Below are positions 22,816 through 40,350 of a DNA stretch of 42,303 nucleotides, in pieces. Below the pieces are notes generated by a model. It made no database searches and had not been told where the DNA came from. It saw nothing but the letters and a program-made list of their open reading frames with translations. A program made the translations under genes and the position numbers. The stretch spans positions 1 to 42,303 of the forward strand of contig JAQTSA010000003.1 of assembly GCA_028711575.1 (NCBI GenBank), written 5' to 3'. Source of the stretch: Candidatus Omnitrophota bacterium (lineage in GTDB: Bacteria; Omnitrophota; Gorgyraeia; Duberdicusellales; 4484-171). Position 1 is the stretch's first letter. Each line of letters begins with the position of its first letter.

Positions 22816-23310
22816 ATGGCAAGACGAAAACCAGAAGAAGAAAAGATTCTTGATGTTAACGCGGCAATGCAGGGTAGTTTGGTTTTTTCCGATCCGGTTA
22901 ACTTGCGGATCAACGGTAAATTTGAAGGTACGTTAACAACTAAAGGTAATTTGATTGTCGGTGCTAGCGCTCAGGTAGTGGCTGATATTATCGGCGAGAG
23001 TATTGTTATTTCGGGAAAGGTTAAAGGAAAGGTTAAGGCCTCAAAAATGGTAGCCCTTACTTTGAGTTCCAATGTCATTGGGGATATTGAAACCCCCAAA
23101 GTTTCTATTGAATCAGGTGCTGTATTTAACGGAAAATTAAAAATGCCTCAAGGTAAGATGACTTTGGGTGAGCTTTCAGATTATCTTTCTGTAGAAGAAA
23201 GAAAAATTGAAGAGTGGGTGAACAATGGTCGTATTCCGGCGGAAAAAATGGGCGACGCTTTTGTCTTTGACCGGCAGGAAGTTGAAGTTTGGATAAGCCA
23301 GAATACCTAA
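22816..23310 (+). CDS. Bactofilin-family polymer protein with C-terminal excisionase/MerR-like HTH (HTH_17) domain
   Basis: Beta-helical repeats GSLVFSDPVNLRINGKFEGTLTTKGNLIVGASAQVVADIIGESIVISGKVKGKVKA...; C-terminus MTLGELSDYLSVEERKIEEWVNNGRIPAEKMGDAFVFDRQEVEVWI; AGGAGG SD upstream of ATG 22816. Confidence 0.85.
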   Translation: MARRKPEEEKILDVNAAMQGSLVFSDPVNLRINGKFEGTLTTKGNLIVGASAQVVADIIGESIVISGKVKGKVKASKMVALTLSSNVIGDIETPKVSIESGAVFNGKLKMPQGKMTLGELSDYLSVEERKIEEWVNNGRIPAEKMGDAFVFDRQEVEVWISQNT

Positions 23311-23344
23311 GGCCGATGTAGTTAACTTTAAAAGGAGAGATTAA

Positions 23345-23689
23345 GTGCCTAGACCATTTTCAAAGCGAGCTATTGTTTTTCGAGAGAAGTTCCTTACAAC
23401 CAGGGATGTTTCCAATTTGTTAGGGCTTTCGGAACAGGAAATTATAGATTTAGCAAAAACCGGCTTAATTCCTCACACCAAGATTGGCGGTGAATTCTTA
23501 AGGTTTAAACGCAGTAATATTCTTAAAATTCGTCAAGATATAAAAAAGCAATATAATGTCCCGCACCGAAAAGTTTATCATTTAGAAAGATTCAAAGAGT
23601 TTTTCTATTTCAATGACTTTTATATTATTTCGACTTTGATAATAATAATTTTACTTTGGATCATTTTTAAAGATTATTCGCTGACTTAG
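23345..23689 (+). CDS. Excisionase-like HTH protein with C-terminal transmembrane anchor
   Basis: FLTTRDVSNLLGLSEQEIIDLAKTGLIPHTKIGGEFLRFKRSNI followed by hydrophobic FYIISTLIIIILLWIIF; GTG start with GGAGAG SD. Confidence 0.75.
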   Translation: MPRPFSKRAIVFREKFLTTRDVSNLLGLSEQEIIDLAKTGLIPHTKIGGEFLRFKRSNILKIRQDIKKQYNVPHRKVYHLERFKEFFYFNDFYIISTLIIIILLWIIFKDYSLT

Positions 23690-24018: not shown

Positions 24019-24229
24019 GTCAAACGATGGTCAGAAAGTGATTGAGTGATTGAGTAAACGGTGATTAAGTGAAGAAGAAATAGAAATTGATAGAAACTTA
24101 TAGAGATTAATAGAAATGTGTTGTCTTTAAAAATAGCGCTGATTATTGCGCAATTGAATTTCAACCAATTTCTACAAATTTCAATCTATTTCAAATTCAA
24201 CCGGTTGACGCTCGCCTGGCGAGCATGCA
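24019..24229 (+). repeat. Composite non-coding repeat field (GTCAAAC; GTGATTGAGT tandem; TAGAAAT array; inverted GTCAAAC/hairpin unit)
   Basis: GTCAAAC 24019; GTGATTGAGTGATTGAGT 24038-24055; AGAAATAGAAATTGATAGAAA...TAGAAAT 24074-24117; opposite-polarity ATTTCAACCAATTTCTACAAATTTCAATCTATTTCA; GGTTGACGCTCGCCTGGCGAGCATGCAA. Confidence 0.7.
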
Positions 24230-24296
24230 ACTTAATCGATATTCTAAAACAATCCCACTTTACTTCTTGAATCTCTTGCTGTACACTGAAAAGCAT

Positions 24297-26312
24297 ATGT
24301 TTACTACCTTTAATCCTCATTCTTTTGCTCCATTAGCGGTGGCAATTGTCTTTTTCTTTGTTCCGCTTATCCCGTATCTTAAAAAACAAAAATCTTCACT
24401 GACTTTAAGCTTTCTTTTTTTTGGCCATTTATCTTTTGTCTGGCAGTTTTCTTATTTTATTGCTTATAACCTAAAAGAAGAAGCTTTGATAATGTTTTGG
24501 TTCAAGATGTCTTATTTAGGGGTTTTACTTATTCCTTCGGCAACCTATCATTTTATAGTTTCGATTCTTAACCTTAACCGAAAAAAAATGGTGGCTTTTT
24601 TTTACTGCATTTTTTTTCTAATATGGCTTTTACTTTTTAAAAGTAACCATGTAATTGAAGGAATACGTTTTTTTCCTTGGGGGCCGCGCCCGGTATTGGG
24701 TATAGTTTTTGGCTGGTTTCTTTTAGCTTGGGTTATTCCGGCGATTCTCGCCTTGAGCTATCTTTATCGTGAATATAAAAGCAACAAATCTCCTTACCAG
24801 CGCAAACGGGTAAAATATCTTTTGTTTAGCTTGCCGATAGCTTATTTCTCGATTATAGATTTTCTGCCGAATTATGGGGTAAACATTTATCCTTTAGGGT
24901 TTGTTCCTTTACTGATTTTTGGATTGTTAACGACTTACGCGATTTTTCGATACCGCTTATTGAATTTTGAGATGATAATTAAAAAAGGTACGCTTATGGC
25001 TTTAGGTGTGGTTATTGCCGTAAGCTCAATATATGTAGCTACTTTTTATTTTCAACCTTATTTATCTTTAGTTAGCCAGAAGAACTGGATATATTTTCCA
25101 ATAACAATTTCTTTTATTGGGGGAATTGGTCTATACCGGTTTATAAATTTTGTCCGATTTATTCAGGAAGATGAGCTCTCAAAAAGATTTGCTTATCGGC
25201 CGATTTTAAAACAGGAAGGTGAACGGATATCTTCAGCTAAGAATTCTCAGGAACTTATTACTTATCTTGTTCGCGATTTAAGCTGTTGGGTCAGGCTTGA
25301 TTATGTCGCGATTCTTCTTCTGGATTGGCAGAAAAAAGGGTATGTTTTAGAAAAAAAAGTTAACAGGTCCGGCCGGCTTTCCCGCTTACCTTTAAGGCTT
25401 AATATTGATAAAGAGAATCCTTTGGTAGTCGAACTGTTACGCAGCCGAAAACCGCTAGTTAGGGAGGAGATTGAATACTCGTTACGCGGGAGAACTCAAA
25501 TTTCAGAAAGTGACATTTTTTTATCTAATCTTTTAGTTGAGATGCGGCTGTTAGGCTCGGAAATAGCTATTCCAAGTTTTTGTGAAGGAAAGCTCTTAGC
25601 AATAATAATTATTGGCCACAAAATTAACAGAAACGATATTGTAACTTACCAGGATTTAGAGATTCTTGTTTCTTTATCTCACAATATCGGCCGGGCTTTG
25701 TACGGCTTTATGCTCAAAGAAGAAAAAGTCCGTCTTATCGTGGCCGCGCAAAATACTCTTATCAGTGCTATTGAAGCAAAAGATGGATATACCCGGGGCC
25801 ATACTGATCGAGTGGCCAAATACGCAACGCTTATGGGGGAAAAGATTCAGCGTCAGTTGAGGAGTTTTCCCTATGGGGTATATAATCTGAAATGGAGCGC
25901 TCAGCTTCATGATGTTGGCAAAATTGCTATTCCTGATGAGATTCTTCTTAAGCCCGGCGCTCTTACCTCTCAAGAGTGGGATAAAGTTAAAGCTCATCCT
26001 TTAGAGGGAATAAAGATCGTTAATTCGGTTAAAGAATGGCTGGGCGAAGACATTTGTGCCGGGATAATGCATCATCATGAAAATTATGACGGTTCAGGAT
26101 ATCCCTTTGGCCAAAAAGGTGAAGAAATTCATATATTTGCCAGGATTATTAGGGTTGCTGATGCGTATGACGCGATGACGACTGATCGTCCTTATAGGAA
26201 AGCTTTGATCCCTTCCCAGGCTTGTGAAGAGCTTGTTCGTTACAAAGGAATTCAGTTTGATCCTTTTGTTGTCGAGGTCTTTGAAGAGTTATATAATAAT
26301 GGAGAGATTTAA
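24297..26312 (+). CDS. Multi-TM sensor (histidine-kinase-type N-terminal TM region) with GAF-like and HD-GYP domains; putative c-di-GMP phosphodiesterase
   Basis: HD-GYP motifs GHTDRVAKYATLMG, QLHDVGKIAIPDEILLKPGALT, GIMHHHENYDGSGYPFG, RIIRVADAYDAMTTDRPYR; longest ORF start (24225) lies inside repeat sequence, so ATG 24297 preferred. Confidence 0.9.
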   Translation: MFTTFNPHSFAPLAVAIVFFFVPLIPYLKKQKSSLTLSFLFFGHLSFVWQFSYFIAYNLKEEALIMFWFKMSYLGVLLIPSATYHFIVSILNLNRKKMVAFFYCIFFLIWLLLFKSNHVIEGIRFFPWGPRPVLGIVFGWFLLAWVIPAILALSYLYREYKSNKSPYQRKRVKYLLFSLPIAYFSIIDFLPNYGVNIYPLGFVPLLIFGLLTTYAIFRYRLLNFEMIIKKGTLMALGVVIAVSSIYVATFYFQPYLSLVSQKNWIYFPITISFIGGIGLYRFINFVRFIQEDELSKRFAYRPILKQEGERISSAKNSQELITYLVRDLSCWVRLDYVAILLLDWQKKGYVLEKKVNRSGRLSRLPLRLNIDKENPLVVELLRSRKPLVREEIEYSLRGRTQISESDIFLSNLLVEMRLLGSEIAIPSFCEGKLLAIIIIGHKINRNDIVTYQDLEILVSLSHNIGRALYGFMLKEEKVRLIVAAQNTLISAIEAKDGYTRGHTDRVAKYATLMGEKIQRQLRSFPYGVYNLKWSAQLHDVGKIAIPDEILLKPGALTSQEWDKVKAHPLEGIKIVNSVKEWLGEDICAGIMHHHENYDGSGYPFGQKGEEIHIFARIIRVADAYDAMTTDRPYRKALIPSQACEELVRYKGIQFDPFVVEVFEELYNNGEI

Positions 26313-26915: not shown

Positions 26916-27458
26916 ATGGATTTATTTGAAGCATTGATTAAGCGGCATAGCTATCGGCAAGGGTTTAAAAACCAATCTGTACCAAGTAGCGATTTGGAAA
27001 AAATTGTTCAGGCCGGGATTATGGCTCCTTCCGGGAAAAACGCTCAGACCACAGAGTTCATTATAGTCGACGATACTCGGTTGGTTTCGAAAATCGGCCA
27101 GATGCATTCCCAAGATATGTTTCGCCAGGCTAAGGCTTTTATCTGTTGTCTTATTGATAAAAATCCTCTTAAAATTTACGAGGGCCATTCTTTCGCCGTT
27201 GAGGATTGTTCGGCGGCAGTAGAGAATATGTTGCTTGCGATTACAGCTTTAGGATACGCTTCAGTTTGGGTTGACGGGTGGCTTCGTCTTGAGTCAAGAG
27301 CCGAAACGATTTCTAATTTGCTATCGGTCCCAAAGGGTAAAGTAATAAGGGTAATACTTCCGATAGGTGTGCCAATAGCTGTTCTCTGCCAGAAAGAAAA
27401 AAAATCGTTTGATCAAAGGGCATGGTTTAATAGTTATCGGCGGAAAGACAAGGTGTAA
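26916..27458 (+). CDS. Nitroreductase-family protein
   Basis: FEALIKRHSYRQGF; IMAPSGKNAQTTEFIIVDD; ENMLLAITALGYASVWVDGW. Confidence 0.88.
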   Translation: MDLFEALIKRHSYRQGFKNQSVPSSDLEKIVQAGIMAPSGKNAQTTEFIIVDDTRLVSKIGQMHSQDMFRQAKAFICCLIDKNPLKIYEGHSFAVEDCSAAVENMLLAITALGYASVWVDGWLRLESRAETISNLLSVPKGKVIRVILPIGVPIAVLCQKEKKSFDQRAWFNSYRRKDKV

Positions 27459-27462
27459 TATT

Positions 27463-28197
27463 ATGAAACGGCAATTTATAGCTTTAATGATTTTGTTATT
27501 GGTTGGTTCTAATTCTTTTGGAGAAACAATTGTTTTAAATTCCGGCAAAACTGTTGAAGGTAAAATAGTTCAAGATAATCCCGAAGAAATTAAGTTTGAT
27601 GTCGACGGAATCCTTATTACTTATTATAAGGATGACATTGCCAGTATCGACGGTATTGCCATGAACAAGGAAGAAGATTCTTCTCAAGAGAAAGATCCTT
27701 TTAAGATCGATGTTGATAAGATAATTTCTGAAGGACATCGCCCGGGTGAAAATATTTTTGCTAAGCGCGGCCCTAAAACTGAACGCTATATGGATTTAAT
27801 TGAAATCGGTAAAGCTTACGCTCAAAATGGAGAATATTTTAAAGCGCGTGATTATTTTAAACGGGCGATAGGTGTTGGTCCTTATCATTCCGCCGGATAT
27901 ATTGGGCTGGGTACAGCTTACCTTGTTTTAGGCCGTTACGGAGACGCAGAACGGGCATTCCAAATCGCTAAACAATTGAGCCAGCAAGAGGGTGACAAGA
28001 AGAAGATCGAAGATTTAGACGAGCTGCTTTTTCAATTAGGTACTATCAAAACTGATGGAGCTGAGCTTCATCCTAAAGCGAAAAAAAGGACTTTTTTCTT
28101 GAAGCGGCTGCTTGTTGTTTTAATCTGTGTTCTTTTGGGGTCTTTAGCGGTTCTTTTTAGGAAAAAGAAATATCCGGTATCTAAAATAGAAACGTAA
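27463..28197 (+). CDS. Secreted/membrane TPR-repeat protein with N-terminal beta-rich module
   Basis: Signal peptide MKRQFIALMILLLVGSNSFG; ETIVLNSGKTVEGKIVQDNPEEIKFDVDGILITYYKDDIASIDG; TPR repeats; C-terminal TM. Start moved to ATG 27463. Confidence 0.75.
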   Translation: MKRQFIALMILLLVGSNSFGETIVLNSGKTVEGKIVQDNPEEIKFDVDGILITYYKDDIASIDGIAMNKEEDSSQEKDPFKIDVDKIISEGHRPGENIFAKRGPKTERYMDLIEIGKAYAQNGEYFKARDYFKRAIGVGPYHSAGYIGLGTAYLVLGRYGDAERAFQIAKQLSQQEGDKKKIEDLDELLFQLGTIKTDGAELHPKAKKRTFFLKRLLVVLICVLLGSLAVLFRKKKYPVSKIET

Positions 28198-28201
28198 AAT
28201 T

Positions 28202-28771
28202 ATGGTTGTCAGACGGTTTAATAAATCCATTTTATTTTTTATTGTTTTATTTATTTTCCCTTTAGTTGGTTCAACTGAGCCGCGGGTAGAAAAGGATTAT
28301 TATCCTAAAGGAAACATAAGATTCATTATTCCTTATAACGGTGATAAAAAGGAAGGTCTCTGCCGATGGTATTATGAGAATGGAAATATCAAGCAAGAGA
28401 CTCCCTACAAAAATGGTTTGCGCGATGGTATTGACCAGTGGTATCATTCCAACGGAAAGAATCATAAGCAGATTCAATATTCCCAAGGGGTTCTTCACGG
28501 GTTTTATAGAGTATACTACAATGATGGATCTTTACAGGAAGAAACTCTTTATGCGCAAGGGAAGAAGCATGGAGATTATAGCAAGTATTCCCGCAAAGGG
28601 GACCTTCTGTTAAAAATAAGATATAAAAATGATCTTAAAGAAGTTTCTCTTCTTTTCGATAATAATGGCAAACCTTCTTATCGGATAATATATCGCCGGG
28701 GGAAATTCTGGCGTCAGGAGAGGCTGAAAGCCACTGGCAGTATGTTTGACGCTTTAACCGGGAAAAAATAA
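28202..28771 (+). CDS. Secreted MORN-variant / YwqK-like repeat protein
   Basis: Repeats: EGLCRWYYENGNIKQETPYKNGLRDGIDQWYHSNGKNHKQIQYSQGVLHGFYRVYYNDGSLQEETLYAQGKKHGDYSKY. Confidence 0.8.
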   Translation: MVVRRFNKSILFFIVLFIFPLVGSTEPRVEKDYYPKGNIRFIIPYNGDKKEGLCRWYYENGNIKQETPYKNGLRDGIDQWYHSNGKNHKQIQYSQGVLHGFYRVYYNDGSLQEETLYAQGKKHGDYSKYSRKGDLLLKIRYKNDLKEVSLLFDNNGKPSYRIIYRRGKFWRQERLKATGSMFDALTGKK

Positions 28772-28788
28772 TCGAAGAGGGTAATCTG

Positions 28789-29886
28789 GTGAAAAAGGTT
28801 TTAAGTCTTGTTGTTTTCTTTTCGGTTTTATTTTTTTATCAACTAACCTTTGGCTCGGTTATTGTTCTTAAAACCGGAGAAACCTTAGAAGGAAAAATAG
28901 TTGAAAGGTCAAAAGATTATATCGTCGTCAATTATTTAGGTGTACCTTTAACGTATTATTTTGAGGAGATAGCTGTTATTGATGGGAAAAAAATCAAGAC
29001 ATCTGTCCCGACAAGAGAAGCAGAGATTATTGAAGAAAAAAATAAAGTAAAAAAGGGCCGTTCATTACCTTCAAAAACAGCGAATCGAACGCTTGATTCC
29101 CAAGATGATAATCTCCGGAATTTTCCTTCTCAGCAAGAATTAACTGAAGTTTTGGTGCCTTTTTATCTTTTAAAAGGTGTCGATTATATCTATCAGGGTA
29201 ACTTGGACAAAGCTGAGGCTCTTTTTCGTCAAGCTTCGATGCTTGATAAGAAAAACAGTTTCTATAAGCGAGCTTTAAAAATTATTGATGACGCTAAAAA
29301 TAATGTTATTCCCAAAGAATCAGTTCCGCTGCTTTTTGAGTCTGAAAATCATCTTTTCAAACGAGAAGCGAAAGAATCTCTTTTGGTTTTAGCTCGGGCG
29401 CTGAAACTTACGGGAAAGTATGATATAAGTTATTACGGCCTCGGGGTAACTTACATGCTGCTTAATGATTTTCGACGAAGTGTTACTTATTTTCAGGAGG
29501 CAGTAGCATTGAACCCTGAGTTCGCGGAAGCGCATTTTAATTTAGGTTATTCTTTGGCAATGCTCTATGATTTTAACAAATCTATCGAATCTTTTTGGCG
29601 CGGGTTACAGCTTGACCCTGAGAATGCTATCGGTTGGTGCGGGCTTGGCACATCATTAAGTTATCTTGAGCATTATAAACAAGCTGTAATCTGTTTCAAT
29701 AAAGGTCTTGAGTTTGATCCCGAGTATCCAAATGGTTATTTCGGCCTTGCGGTCTTGTATTCTAAGGCTGGTGAGATAGTCCGGGCTAAAGCTAATTTTG
29801 AAAAAGCAAGCGCTCTATTTAAGCAACAAGGGAATAAAGAAGGGGTAAAACAGGTAAACATATATTTAAAAAAAATTAAAAAATAG
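28789..29886 (+). CDS. Secreted TPR-repeat protein with N-terminal beta-rich module (paralogous N-terminus to 27463..28197)
   Basis: GTG start; SVIVLKTGETLEGKIVERSKDYIVVNYLGVPLTYYFEEIAVIDGKKI; multiple TPRs (AEAHFNLGYSLAMLYDFNKSIESFWRGLQLDPENAIGWCGLGTSLSYL). Confidence 0.82.
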   Translation: MKKVLSLVVFFSVLFFYQLTFGSVIVLKTGETLEGKIVERSKDYIVVNYLGVPLTYYFEEIAVIDGKKIKTSVPTREAEIIEEKNKVKKGRSLPSKTANRTLDSQDDNLRNFPSQQELTEVLVPFYLLKGVDYIYQGNLDKAEALFRQASMLDKKNSFYKRALKIIDDAKNNVIPKESVPLLFESENHLFKREAKESLLVLARALKLTGKYDISYYGLGVTYMLLNDFRRSVTYFQEAVALNPEFAEAHFNLGYSLAMLYDFNKSIESFWRGLQLDPENAIGWCGLGTSLSYLEHYKQAVICFNKGLEFDPEYPNGYFGLAVLYSKAGEIVRAKANFEKASALFKQQGNKEGVKQVNIYLKKIKK

Positions 29887-34555: not shown

Positions 34556-34569
34556 GAAAAGGGGGCTTG

Positions 34570-35382
34570 ATGGACAAACGAATCATAAACATTATAATAG
34601 GTATAGTTTGTGCGGCCGGCGCTATTTTGCTAATTCATGGCCATATAATGAAGCAGGAAGGCCGAATTCAGCAGTTGATTGAAGAAGGCAAAGCTGTACG
34701 GGTTGTTGTCGCTCGCTACGATATCTCAAGAGAAACGACGATTACCGAAGAAATGGTAACTACCAAGGTTGTGAACCGAAACGCTTTACAGCCGGGAGAT
34801 TTAACAGCAATGGAGTCAGTTATCGGTAAGTTCGCGGAAGTTGATATTTTAAGCGGTCAGCATATCAATGGTAACATGATTCGGGCTTTTGGCTCTTTTG
34901 ATTTTTTGTCTCAAGCAGTTAAAAAGGGGTTAAGAGCTATAACTATTCCGGTGGATAAATTGTCGGCCGTTGAAGGCCTCTTAAAACCTCAGGACAAAAT
35001 TGATATTGTCGGTACATTCAATATTCCTACGGAAACCGGAGAAATCGCTCCGGTGGTACTGACGATATTCCAAAGTGTTGAAGTTCTCGCGACAAACACC
35101 AATATTTCAAGGTACAAAACATCAAAAGCGATTCAATCAGTTACCTTGGCTCTTGAACCGGAAGATGTTCGGACCCTTACTTTTGTTATGGAAATGGGTA
35201 GAATTAAACTGGTTTTAAGGGGTGAAGCTGATGTTGCTCAGGAAATAGGCTATACAGCTGTTACTTGGGATATCCTTATGCGTAAATTAGGCATGTATCA
35301 GGAACAGCCGGAAATTACGGAAAGCCCAACTATATCGGTTTATCGCGGCTCGGATATGGAGCAGGCGCCTGTGATGCAATAA
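34570..35382 (+). CDS. cpaB: Pilus assembly protein CpaB (SAF domain)
   Basis: N-terminal TM; VRVVVARYDISRETTITEEMVTTKVVNRNALQPGDL...ITIPVDKLSAVEGLLKPQDKIDIVGTF; ATG 34570 preferred. Confidence 0.88.
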   Translation: MDKRIINIIIGIVCAAGAILLIHGHIMKQEGRIQQLIEEGKAVRVVVARYDISRETTITEEMVTTKVVNRNALQPGDLTAMESVIGKFAEVDILSGQHINGNMIRAFGSFDFLSQAVKKGLRAITIPVDKLSAVEGLLKPQDKIDIVGTFNIPTETGEIAPVVLTIFQSVEVLATNTNISRYKTSKAIQSVTLALEPEDVRTLTFVMEMGRIKLVLRGEADVAQEIGYTAVTWDILMRKLGMYQEQPEITESPTISVYRGSDMEQAPVMQ

Positions 35383-35397
35383 TAAAGGAGGTGCGTC

Positions 35398-37047
35398 ATA
35401 AAGAAATTATCTTTTCTTATTAGCATATTTTTGTCTTTTTCATTTCTTTTTCCGCCTGCCTATTGCAGAGATCCTTTATCGTTTGAAGAAGAGTCTCAAG
35501 AGGATGTTACCCTGGTCATCGGAGAAGTCAGTGTCTTTTCGGTGTATTCTCCGGAACGGGTGTCGATCCGAAACCCGGAAATCGCCGATATCACCAATGT
35601 TGCTGAAAACGAAGTAGTTATCGTTGCTAAAGCTGCCGGCGACACCGCGCTGACAATTTGGGATAGGGAAGGTGAAAAGATCTTTTACATAACAGTATAT
35701 TCTCAGGATTTCAGCCGAGTAAAAAAACGAATGGAAAAACTGCTGCATAGCGATTTAAAAATCCCTGGCATCTACGTTAAAATTAACCCAACCAACGGCC
35801 GGTTGATGGTTATGGGTGAAGCGACCAAACAAAATAAAGAGCATATTGAGAGTTTGCTTGCTCCTTTTGAAGGAGACGAGTCAGATCCTGATAAGCCGGA
35901 TTTTGTTGATAACCTTGTCACAGAAAAAAAAGAATTTAAAGTTGTCGAGATTGAAGCTAGAATCCTGGAAATTAATAAGACCGACCTTGATAATTTAGGC
36001 GTTGAATGGCAGCAATATCTTCAAATTCGTCAAGAACCTTATGGCGCTCCGTCAAGCGGTACCGGTTCAGTTGAGACCACGTTAAGTCTTATTCGTCCTT
36101 GGACCGCGGTTTGGGGCATGGGGCAATGGTCTCGAGACGCGATTCACGCTAAACTTAATATGCTGATTAGCCGGGGTAGTGGTAAAGAACTGTCTCGTCC
36201 AAAATTGATGTGTTTAACCGGGGAAGAAGCCAAACTGGTTGTTGGCGGAGAAATGCCTTATTTGAGCGGTGCGACCTCCGGTGCCGCCGGAACGTCTATC
36301 AACGTTGAATATAAGGAGTACGGCATAGTTTTTAATGTCAAACCTACTGTTCTTTCGGACGGAAACATTTTTATGAATCTTAAAACCGAGGTCAGCGAGT
36401 TAGACTGGACTAACGCTTTAACTCTTACCGGAAACACCGGCGCAAGCCTGCCGGCTTTTACCACTCGTCAGGCCGAAACGGTGTTAAACATGCAGGATGG
36501 CGACACGGTATTTATTGCCGGATTGATCAAAAGCGACGTTTCTAACACTATTAAAAAGTTTCCTGCCTTAGCAAATGTTCCGGTTTTAGGCAGTTTGTTT
36601 CGTTCAAAAGACTTTCAGAATCGGCAAACTGAACTTGTGATTTCTCTTACGCCGCGGGTCATTGATGTTGAGCCAAAAATTAAAATTCCTGAAATCCAGG
36701 ATGTCCCTGCCGGCCGTTACCGGGCAAACCTTGAAAATTATCACGACATGATACCTGAAGATTTGCAGGGTTATGTCATGGGCGTACAACGTAAGATCTT
36801 AAATAATGTCGCTTATCCGGTACGATTGCTCAATACCGGTTGGGAAGGCATTGTCGTTATGAACATAAAAATAGACCATATCGGACAGTTGGTCGCTAAT
36901 AAGGTTGTTAAATCTTCCGGCTATAATATTTTTGATGAAGACGCGATAAGTATGGTCAGCGGACTGCAGTTTGATCCTTTTCCTCCGCACGTTGACATTG
37001 AGGAACTTGAGATAGAAGTTCCTATCGTGTATCGTGAAAAAAGATAG
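35398..37047 (+). CDS. cpaC: CpaC-type secretin with C-terminal TonB-like domain; apparent AUA start codon
   Basis: AGGAGGTG SD at 35386-35393, 6-nt spacer after GGAGG, then in-frame ATA giving (M)KKLSFLISIFLSFSFLFPPAYCRD; secretin core FKVVEIEARILEINKTDLDNLGVEW...LVISLTPRVID; C-terminus YPVRLLNTGWEGIVVMNIKIDHIGQLVANKVVKSSGYNIFDEDAISMVSGLQFDPFPPH. Confidence 0.88.
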   Translation: MKKLSFLISIFLSFSFLFPPAYCRDPLSFEEESQEDVTLVIGEVSVFSVYSPERVSIRNPEIADITNVAENEVVIVAKAAGDTALTIWDREGEKIFYITVYSQDFSRVKKRMEKLLHSDLKIPGIYVKINPTNGRLMVMGEATKQNKEHIESLLAPFEGDESDPDKPDFVDNLVTEKKEFKVVEIEARILEINKTDLDNLGVEWQQYLQIRQEPYGAPSSGTGSVETTLSLIRPWTAVWGMGQWSRDAIHAKLNMLISRGSGKELSRPKLMCLTGEEAKLVVGGEMPYLSGATSGAAGTSINVEYKEYGIVFNVKPTVLSDGNIFMNLKTEVSELDWTNALTLTGNTGASLPAFTTRQAETVLNMQDGDTVFIAGLIKSDVSNTIKKFPALANVPVLGSLFRSKDFQNRQTELVISLTPRVIDVEPKIKIPEIQDVPAGRYRANLENYHDMIPEDLQGYVMGVQRKILNNVAYPVRLLNTGWEGIVVMNIKIDHIGQLVANKVVKSSGYNIFDEDAISMVSGLQFDPFPPHVDIEELEIEVPIVYREKR

Positions 37048-37120: not shown

Positions 37121-39283
<2,163 letters not shown>

Positions 39284-39285
39284 TT

Positions 39286-40350
39286 ATGGCTGAAGGAATG
39301 CAAAAATTAAGAAAGCTTTTAGGTGACGAAAAAATTACCGAAATAATGGTAAACGGCCCAAACGCTACTTTTCTTGAAGTTCAAGGTCATAAATATAAGA
39401 TCGATACTCTTTTTACTGATGAAGACATGCAGGAAATAATCGATGAAGTTTTTAATAAAGTCGGCAAACCGATTTCATACTATAACCCGAGCGGTGACGT
39501 TTGTTTAGAAGACGGCTCACGCCTTAACTTGATTACTTACCCTTTAGCCCGTTGCGGAACGACTCTGACCATTAGAAAATTTGACCGTCAGCTTCATAGC
39601 ATTGATGACCTTATCGAAAAAGGTACTTTGAGCCGGAAAATGGCCGACTTTTTAATCGCTTGTATCAAAGGGCAGGTCAACATTCTTTTTTCCGGCGCGA
39701 CCGGTTCGGGAAAAACAACAACTATGGAAATGCTTTCTTACCATATACCGGAACAGGAACGTATTGTTACCATTGAAGATACTGCTGAGCTTATTCTTCA
39801 CCAGGAAAACCTTGTTCCGATGGAAACCCGATCGCCTGACGAGCACGGTAAAGGCGAGGTTACTTTACGGGACTTGATTCGTAACTCATTGCGTATGCGC
39901 CCGGACAGAATTATTGTTGGTGAGGTCAGAGGCCCGGAAGCTTTAGACATGATTCAAGCTATGTCAACCGGCCACCGGGGAACTTTAGCGGTTATTCATG
40001 GCAACTCTCCACAGGAAATAACCAGCCGGCTTGAAACTTTAATTCTTTCTTCCGGCATAAAGCTTCCGGTACATGAGATAAGAAGAATGATTGGAAACAC
40101 TTTGAACATTATTGTTCAGCAGGAACGTATGGCTGACGGGGTGCGCCGGATAACTCAGATCTCTGAAGCGCGTGGAGTTGAACGGGAAGAAGTCGCTTTA
40201 CAGGACATTTATGTTTTTCGTAGAGAAGGGAAAACTGCCGACGGGCGAATCAAGGGTAGTTTTCAGACAGTTATGCGTATGTATCCCCGCTTTTTTGCTG
40301 AGTTCCAGCGTTTAGGAATTTTAGACGAAAAAATCTTTTCTGACCACTAA
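39286..40350 (+). CDS. cpaF: CpaF/TadA-type secretion ATPase (second copy)
   Basis: [39 protein letters not shown]...[38 protein letters not shown]. Confidence 0.95.

Follow-up and report, generated by a model that had tools for sequence, protein, structure and literature searches.

Omnitrophota, a PVC-group phylum with essentially no cultured members, encode a bactofilin variant in which the beta-helical scaffold ends in a winged helix-turn-helix (P1) and is followed by a small membrane-anchored winged-helix protein (P2). This variant with its membrane partner is real, conserved and apparently undescribed, and the pair looks more like a scaffold with a membrane receptor than like a DNA-binding scaffold. 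We analyzed it in a 42,303-nucleotide stretch of DNA from a Candidatus Omnitrophota genome (hereafter the window) and followed it through related genomes. No paper combining bactofilin with excisionase was found in the open-access literature searched, and titles and abstracts in that literature that join bactofilin with helix-turn-helix, DNA-binding domain or Omnitrophota describe no such fusion.

A bactofilin fusion and a tail-anchored neighbor

A first-pass annotation of the window had read P1 as a fusion of a bactofilin with a helix-turn-helix (HTH), and P2, 34 nt downstream, as an HTH protein of the same family with a C-terminal transmembrane (TM) helix; Pfam profiles, hydropathy and the gene coordinates bear this out. 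P1 matched both Bactofilin (residues 11-108, E 2.5e-23, 82.6 bits against a curated cut-off of 27.9) and HTH_17 (residues 115-163, E 6.5e-8, above the curated cut-off), as did all 22 P1 relatives scanned. P2 matched HTH_17 (residues 16-61, E 9.2e-9, again above the curated cut-off), and so did 25 of 25 P2 relatives. The P1 stop and the GTG start of P2 are separated by the 34-nt gap, with a Shine-Dalgarno-like purine-rich stretch before each gene (Table 1), while matches to promoters and terminators around the pair were no more frequent than in shuffled sequence.

Table 1 Features of the P1-P2 locus (window coordinates)
Feature	Position	Strand	Basis
Shine-Dalgarno-like AAGGAGG of P1	22800..22806	+	9 nt before ATG, seen in sequence
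P1, bactofilin with C-terminal winged helix-turn-helix, 164 aa	22816..23310	+	ORF, Pfam Bactofilin and HTH_17, AlphaFold2
Bactofilin beta-helix domain, P1 residues 11-108, including F104	22846..23139	+	Pfam, Foldseek, pairwise alignment
P1 HTH_17 winged helix, residues 115-163, acidic, DNA-contact positions unconserved	23158..23304	+	
Shine-Dalgarno-like AGGAGAG of P2	23333..23339	+	Seen in sequence
P2, tail-anchored HTH_17 protein, 114 aa, GTG start	23345..23689	+	ORF, Pfam HTH_17, phylum-wide family
P2 HTH_17 winged helix, residues 16-61	23390..23527	+	Pfam; same fold in linked model of a relative
P2 juxtamembrane motif FFYFNDFY, residues 86-93	23600..23623	+	Kept across P2 relatives
P2 C-terminal transmembrane helix, about residues 94-108	23624..23668	+	Hydropathy maximum in relatives; helix in linked model

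In an AlphaFold2 model built with 117 relatives (mean pLDDT 88.4), the P1 beta-helix leads into a winged helix of helix-helix-strand-strand-helix order, so that the HTH read from the letters is also a folded domain in prediction. The closest solved structures found by Foldseek were the bactofilins 2n3d, 6ria and 6rib (TM-score to target 0.73-0.87, E only 7e-3 to 2e-2), followed, for the tail, by the excisionase RdfS, RacA-DNA, BldC-DNA and the CbpM-CbpA complex (3ucs); as no match fell below E 1e-3, these structural likenesses rest on fold scores. The beta-helix probably forms polymers. F104 of P1 aligned pairwise with BacA F130 and TtBac F105, where mutations have been used to block polymerization, and the site is F, L, I or M in 143 of 145 P1 sequences. 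Window P1 starts MARRK and does not match the MFSKKKK-type N-terminal membrane-targeting sequence that is widespread, though not universal, among bactofilins; among 138 N-termini of P1 relatives, one starts MF and 26 have an aromatic residue at position 3. Some are basic and sometimes hydrophobic (MAFKKK, MLKKK), and such N-termini could still be weak membrane-targeting sequences.

All 36 P2 sequences of the initial alignment have a C-terminal hydrophobic stretch, with 19-residue Kyte-Doolittle maxima of 1.6-3.0, preceded by a motif like FFYFNDFYI, and the P2 chain ends just past its TM, with no periplasmic domain. In three P1-less genomes of a single genus (L317, L318, L319), YFNDFY of this motif is replaced by YFYDFY, P1-bearing siblings having YFNDFY or YYNDFY; the tyrosine also occurs at this site in some P1-bearing genomes, so a tie to P1 loss is unproven.

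The pair is conserved across the phylum

The pairing, which the first-pass annotation knew from a single genome, is conserved phylum-wide, far beyond chance. Across the 285 Omnitrophota genomes that these counts cover, P1 occurred in 238 and P2 in 253; at thresholds of 1e-20 and 1e-12, on which the count of P1 genomes lying within P2 genomes depends, P2 was present in all 238 P1 genomes and alone in 15, with neither found in 32. Wherever P1 is intact and the sequence extends far enough downstream, P2 comes directly 3' of it, in 145 of 145 distinct loci and with a median gap of 31 nt. Four P1 loci had no adjacent P2: one at a contig edge (L230), one a truncated copy (L093) and the remaining two a single HTH-less copy counted twice (L047 and L090). 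The truncated and HTH-less copies among these four are second bactofilin copies that lack an intact HTH (L090, L093), with no P2 beside them in the flanking sequence covered.

The pair recurs in 39 relatives, where the fusion is almost the sole bactofilin (second copies, with the HTH absent or truncated, occur in G002 and G018), and any bactofilin was found in only 1 of 35 P1-less genomes searched, as a weak match. Almost every Omnitrophota bactofilin that we found is therefore a winged-helix fusion, and it comes with a neighboring tail-anchored winged-helix protein, P1 never occurring without it. Among the best 80 loci from a genome-collection scan, which used a pattern specific to this subfamily, 78 are titled Candidatus Omnitrophota or Omnitrophica and the other two are untitled MAGs.

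P2 outlasts P1

The gene order gatC-gatA-gatB-ctp-tsaD-mgtC-P1-P2 holds throughout the class, and the genes 3' of P2 vary by lineage. Because the entire neighborhood is conserved, adjacency by itself is weaker evidence of an interaction. As most of the genomes are metagenome assemblies, single absences may be artefacts, and we relied on repeated, syntenic ones. P1 has been lost and P2 kept in the tsaD-mgtC-P1-P2 slot in at least four lineages: G011 (of the window's own family), family f8, G036 (f10) and genus g41 (f13). In f13 the mgtC-P2 junction is clean, at 12-13 nt, and a sibling still has mgtC-P1-P2. The P2 HTH is 83% identical within this family where P1 is present and 80% where it is gone, so this domain cannot serve P1 exclusively. 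All genomes in which P1 was found also have P2, yet P2 survives the loss of P1, suggesting that P1 depends on P2 and P2 does not depend on P1. We accordingly ruled out that P2 is an anchor for P1 only.

The P1 winged helix has reversed its DNA-contact charge

For net charge, we set 145 winged helices of P1 and 145 of P2 against 20 stand-alone HTH_17 domains from the same or related genomes, controls that mostly represent one orthologous family and whose DNA binding is presumed. Mean net charge was -3.39 +/- 1.80 for P1, +0.40 +/- 1.92 for P2 and +3.35 +/- 1.69 for the controls; the cytosolic part of P2 as a whole averaged +2.4. In BldC, DNA is contacted by Lys26, Thr27, Thr29, Arg30, Trp31, Lys33, His46, Arg47 and Arg48; Arg30 reads bases, and R30A and H46E each abolish binding (PMC5859096). 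P1 has Glu or Asp at the Arg30 position in 90% of sequences and is acidic at the positions of Asp24 (97%) and Arg50 (83%), the only well-kept positions being the structural Trp31 (Trp in 98%) and Arg41 (Lys or Arg in 83%). The controls carry Asn at position 30, so this position alone is no proof, and the reversal of net charge as a whole weighs more heavily.

P2 is mixed. Its recognition helix is acidic, with Glu at the Pro25 position in 85% and Glu or Asp at the Thr27 position in 82%, and the Arg30 position is Asp or Glu in 55% and basic in only 24%. Its wing, by contrast, has Arg at the Arg48 position in 145 of 145 sequences and basic residues at the positions of Arg41 (91%) and Arg50 (93%), and its linker is basic. 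The first-pass annotation had let its DNA reading turn on such contact residues: in P1 they are largely lost, while in P2 the recognition helix argues against DNA contact and the wing, with its invariant arginine, argues for it. Judged from these alignments, direct DNA binding by the P1 winged helix is unlikely, and for P2 the case for DNA binding appears open but weak.

The P1 tail could in principle be a recent duplicate of the P2 HTH, an origin that we do not favor, as its mean identity is 34% to stand-alone HTH_17 domains and 25% to the P2 HTH. A near-identical stand-alone HTH_17 protein of about 60-75 residues (LMSVDELADYLGLQKQTIYNWLHQKKISGIKIGKVWRFDRKYIDEWLK), BldC-like in size, occurs in many Omnitrophota genomes (L236-L255).

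Other genes in the window

P2 is followed by a tRNA-Met gene and then by a 695-aa protein (24225-26312) that combines a 7TM sensor region (HisKA_7TM) with a C-terminal HD_5 (HD-GYP-type) domain. Further along, two tetratricopeptide-type ORFs (27409-29886) flank a MORN-repeat protein (28202-28771); both begin with the same short region (SGKTVEGKIV and TGETLEGKIV), and they may be a duplication. A single 720-aa ORF (37121-39283) encodes both a ParA/MinD-type ATPase (residues 3-168, AAA_31) and a CpaF/TadA-type secretion ATPase (residues 365-646, T2SSE). It lies downstream of CpaB- and CpaC-like ORFs (34567-37047, named from their sequence only), a second T2SSE ATPase follows directly (39286-40350), and the ORF looks like a putative CpaE-CpaF fusion in a Flp/Tad pilus cluster.

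A proposed docking domain and its membrane receptor

The best explanation, in which we place about even confidence, is that P1 docks onto protein through its winged helix and that tail-anchored P2 is the membrane receptor of the P1 polymer, with an additional role independent of P1. The P1 tail would be a former DNA-binding domain that became an acidic docking domain, with the filament presenting it many times over. At the inner membrane, this polymer would be recruited or organized by P2 through its winged helix in the cytoplasm, the basic wing of that domain and the aromatic motif next to the membrane, a route that may replace, or work alongside, the N-terminal peptide that targets typical bactofilins to the membrane. 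P2 would then be the more fundamental component of the pair and, being retained where P1 is lost, would have one or more other partners. That the P1 winged helix (-3.4) and the cytosolic part of P2 (+2.4) are oppositely charged fits docking without proving it. Typical bactofilins reach the membrane via an MFSKKKK-like N-terminal peptide, and the overproduced client PbpC replaces the membrane-targeting sequence of BacA in trans; the membrane route of bactofilins with non-canonical N-termini is stated there as an open question (PMC12448750). A MerR-type fold that has lost its DNA contacts and binds a protein is known in CbpM, whose target is the J-domain of CbpA (PMC4063869).

We also looked for the P1-P2 contact in models and in covariation. 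When P1 and P2 of a relative with both genes in frame were folded as one linked chain, the stop being read as Gly, both winged helices folded but pTM was 0.43, giving no confident interface. Mean-field DCA on 145 P1-P2 pairs placed inter-protein pairs among the top scores, but a control against the neighbor MgtC scored equally high, making the P1-P2 covariation uninformative. If true, the docking model would be a second case, after RodZ-MreB, of an HTH fold serving the cytoskeleton instead of DNA, and to our knowledge the first such case for bactofilins.

The first-pass annotation had instead proposed a DNA-cytoskeleton-membrane tether built on a polymer that binds DNA directly. The architecture and the conserved pairing behind that proposal hold, whereas direct DNA binding by the P1 polymer runs against the acidic charge of its winged helix and the Glu/Asp at the Arg30 position. 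We therefore regard it as distinctly improbable that both winged helices bind DNA and that bactofilin polymer and membrane-anchored protein jointly hold the chromosome at the membrane, even though both domains exceed the HTH_17 cut-off, the P1 tail is similar in fold to DNA-bound RacA, BldC and RdfS and retains the residues noted at Trp31 and Arg41, and membrane- or pole-tethered MerR-type winged-helix chromosome proteins exist in RacA and RocS (PMC11500499). In Myxococcus xanthus, moreover, bactofilins reach ParABS through the adapter PadC and not by DNA binding of their own (PMC5703909). The survival of P2 in several lineages without P1 indicates that it is not merely half of a two-part tether. 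A looser form, in which DNA would be engaged phylum-wide by P2 through its basic wing, by the P1 polymer through avidity along its length, or by both, anchoring the chromosome without an adapter like PadC, seems doubtful to us; were a DNA model true, it would describe a one-step chromosome tether.

RocS is a precedent for chromosome tethering by a membrane-anchored MerR-type winged helix (PMC11500499), and it keeps a DNA role for P2 alive. In a division of labor of this kind, only P2 would touch DNA, holding it weakly at the membrane by its basic wing in the manner of RocS or RacA, while the acidic P1 winged helix would dock onto and cluster P2. Its RocS-like layout, the basic residues of wing and linker and its retention without P1, as expected of a DNA role of its own, speak for such an arrangement, but the recognition helix is acidic and the HTH carries a net charge of about +0.4 against +3.4 in the controls; we consider it unlikely. 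Rather less credence goes to the idea that P1 and P2 do not bind each other at all and are independent housekeeping proteins of the conserved gatCAB-ctp-tsaD-mgtC cluster, P1 being an ordinary scaffold whose tail binds another client and P2 a membrane-bound regulator. The conservation of the whole neighborhood, the persistence of P2 with an unrelaxed HTH after P1 loss and the lack of a signal from the linked fold or covariation would all be expected in that case, but it leaves unaccounted for why P2 accompanies P1 in 238 of 238 genomes although the 3' genes differ between lineages, why both proteins carry an HTH of the same family and why HTH-less bactofilin copies have no neighboring P2.

Comparison with known systems

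P1 resembles the bactofilins Caulobacter crescentus BacA and Thermus thermophilus TtBac (PF04519) in its beta-helix domain, its fold match and the position of its polymerization Phe. It differs from them in the added C-terminal winged helix and the constant HTH membrane-protein neighbor, and window P1 has no MFSKKKK-type N-terminus. Its tail is like CbpM, likewise a MerR-type winged helix with DNA-contact residues lost and a Foldseek match of P1; CbpM, however, is a soluble coiled-coil dimer, whereas the P1 domain forms part of a polymer and has a partner that is unproven. The MerR-type winged-helix DNA binders RacA, RocS and BldC share the fold, but the DNA-contact residues are reversed in P1 and mostly lost in the P2 recognition helix. 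RocS also shares with P2 the combination of a winged helix and a C-terminal membrane anchor; the P2 anchor is a transmembrane helix, unlike the coiled coil and amphipathic helix of RacA/RocS-type binders.

RodZ, an HTH and TM protein that acts on a filament, MreB, and not on DNA (PMC6052060), is like P2 in having a cytoplasmic HTH and a single TM beside a cytoskeletal polymer. P2 has an HTH_17 domain and no periplasmic domain, whereas RodZ has HTH_25 and a periplasmic RodZ domain, and RodZ-type HTH_25 and MreB families were found separately in 39 of 39 relatives searched; on these grounds we ruled out that P2 is RodZ itself. As partners that connect a bactofilin to other machinery, PadC of M. 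xanthus and PbpC, the C. crescentus BacA client that can anchor BacA in trans, are comparable to P2 in its proposed role, but their sequences are unrelated to those of the P1-P2 pair, in which both partners carry winged helices.
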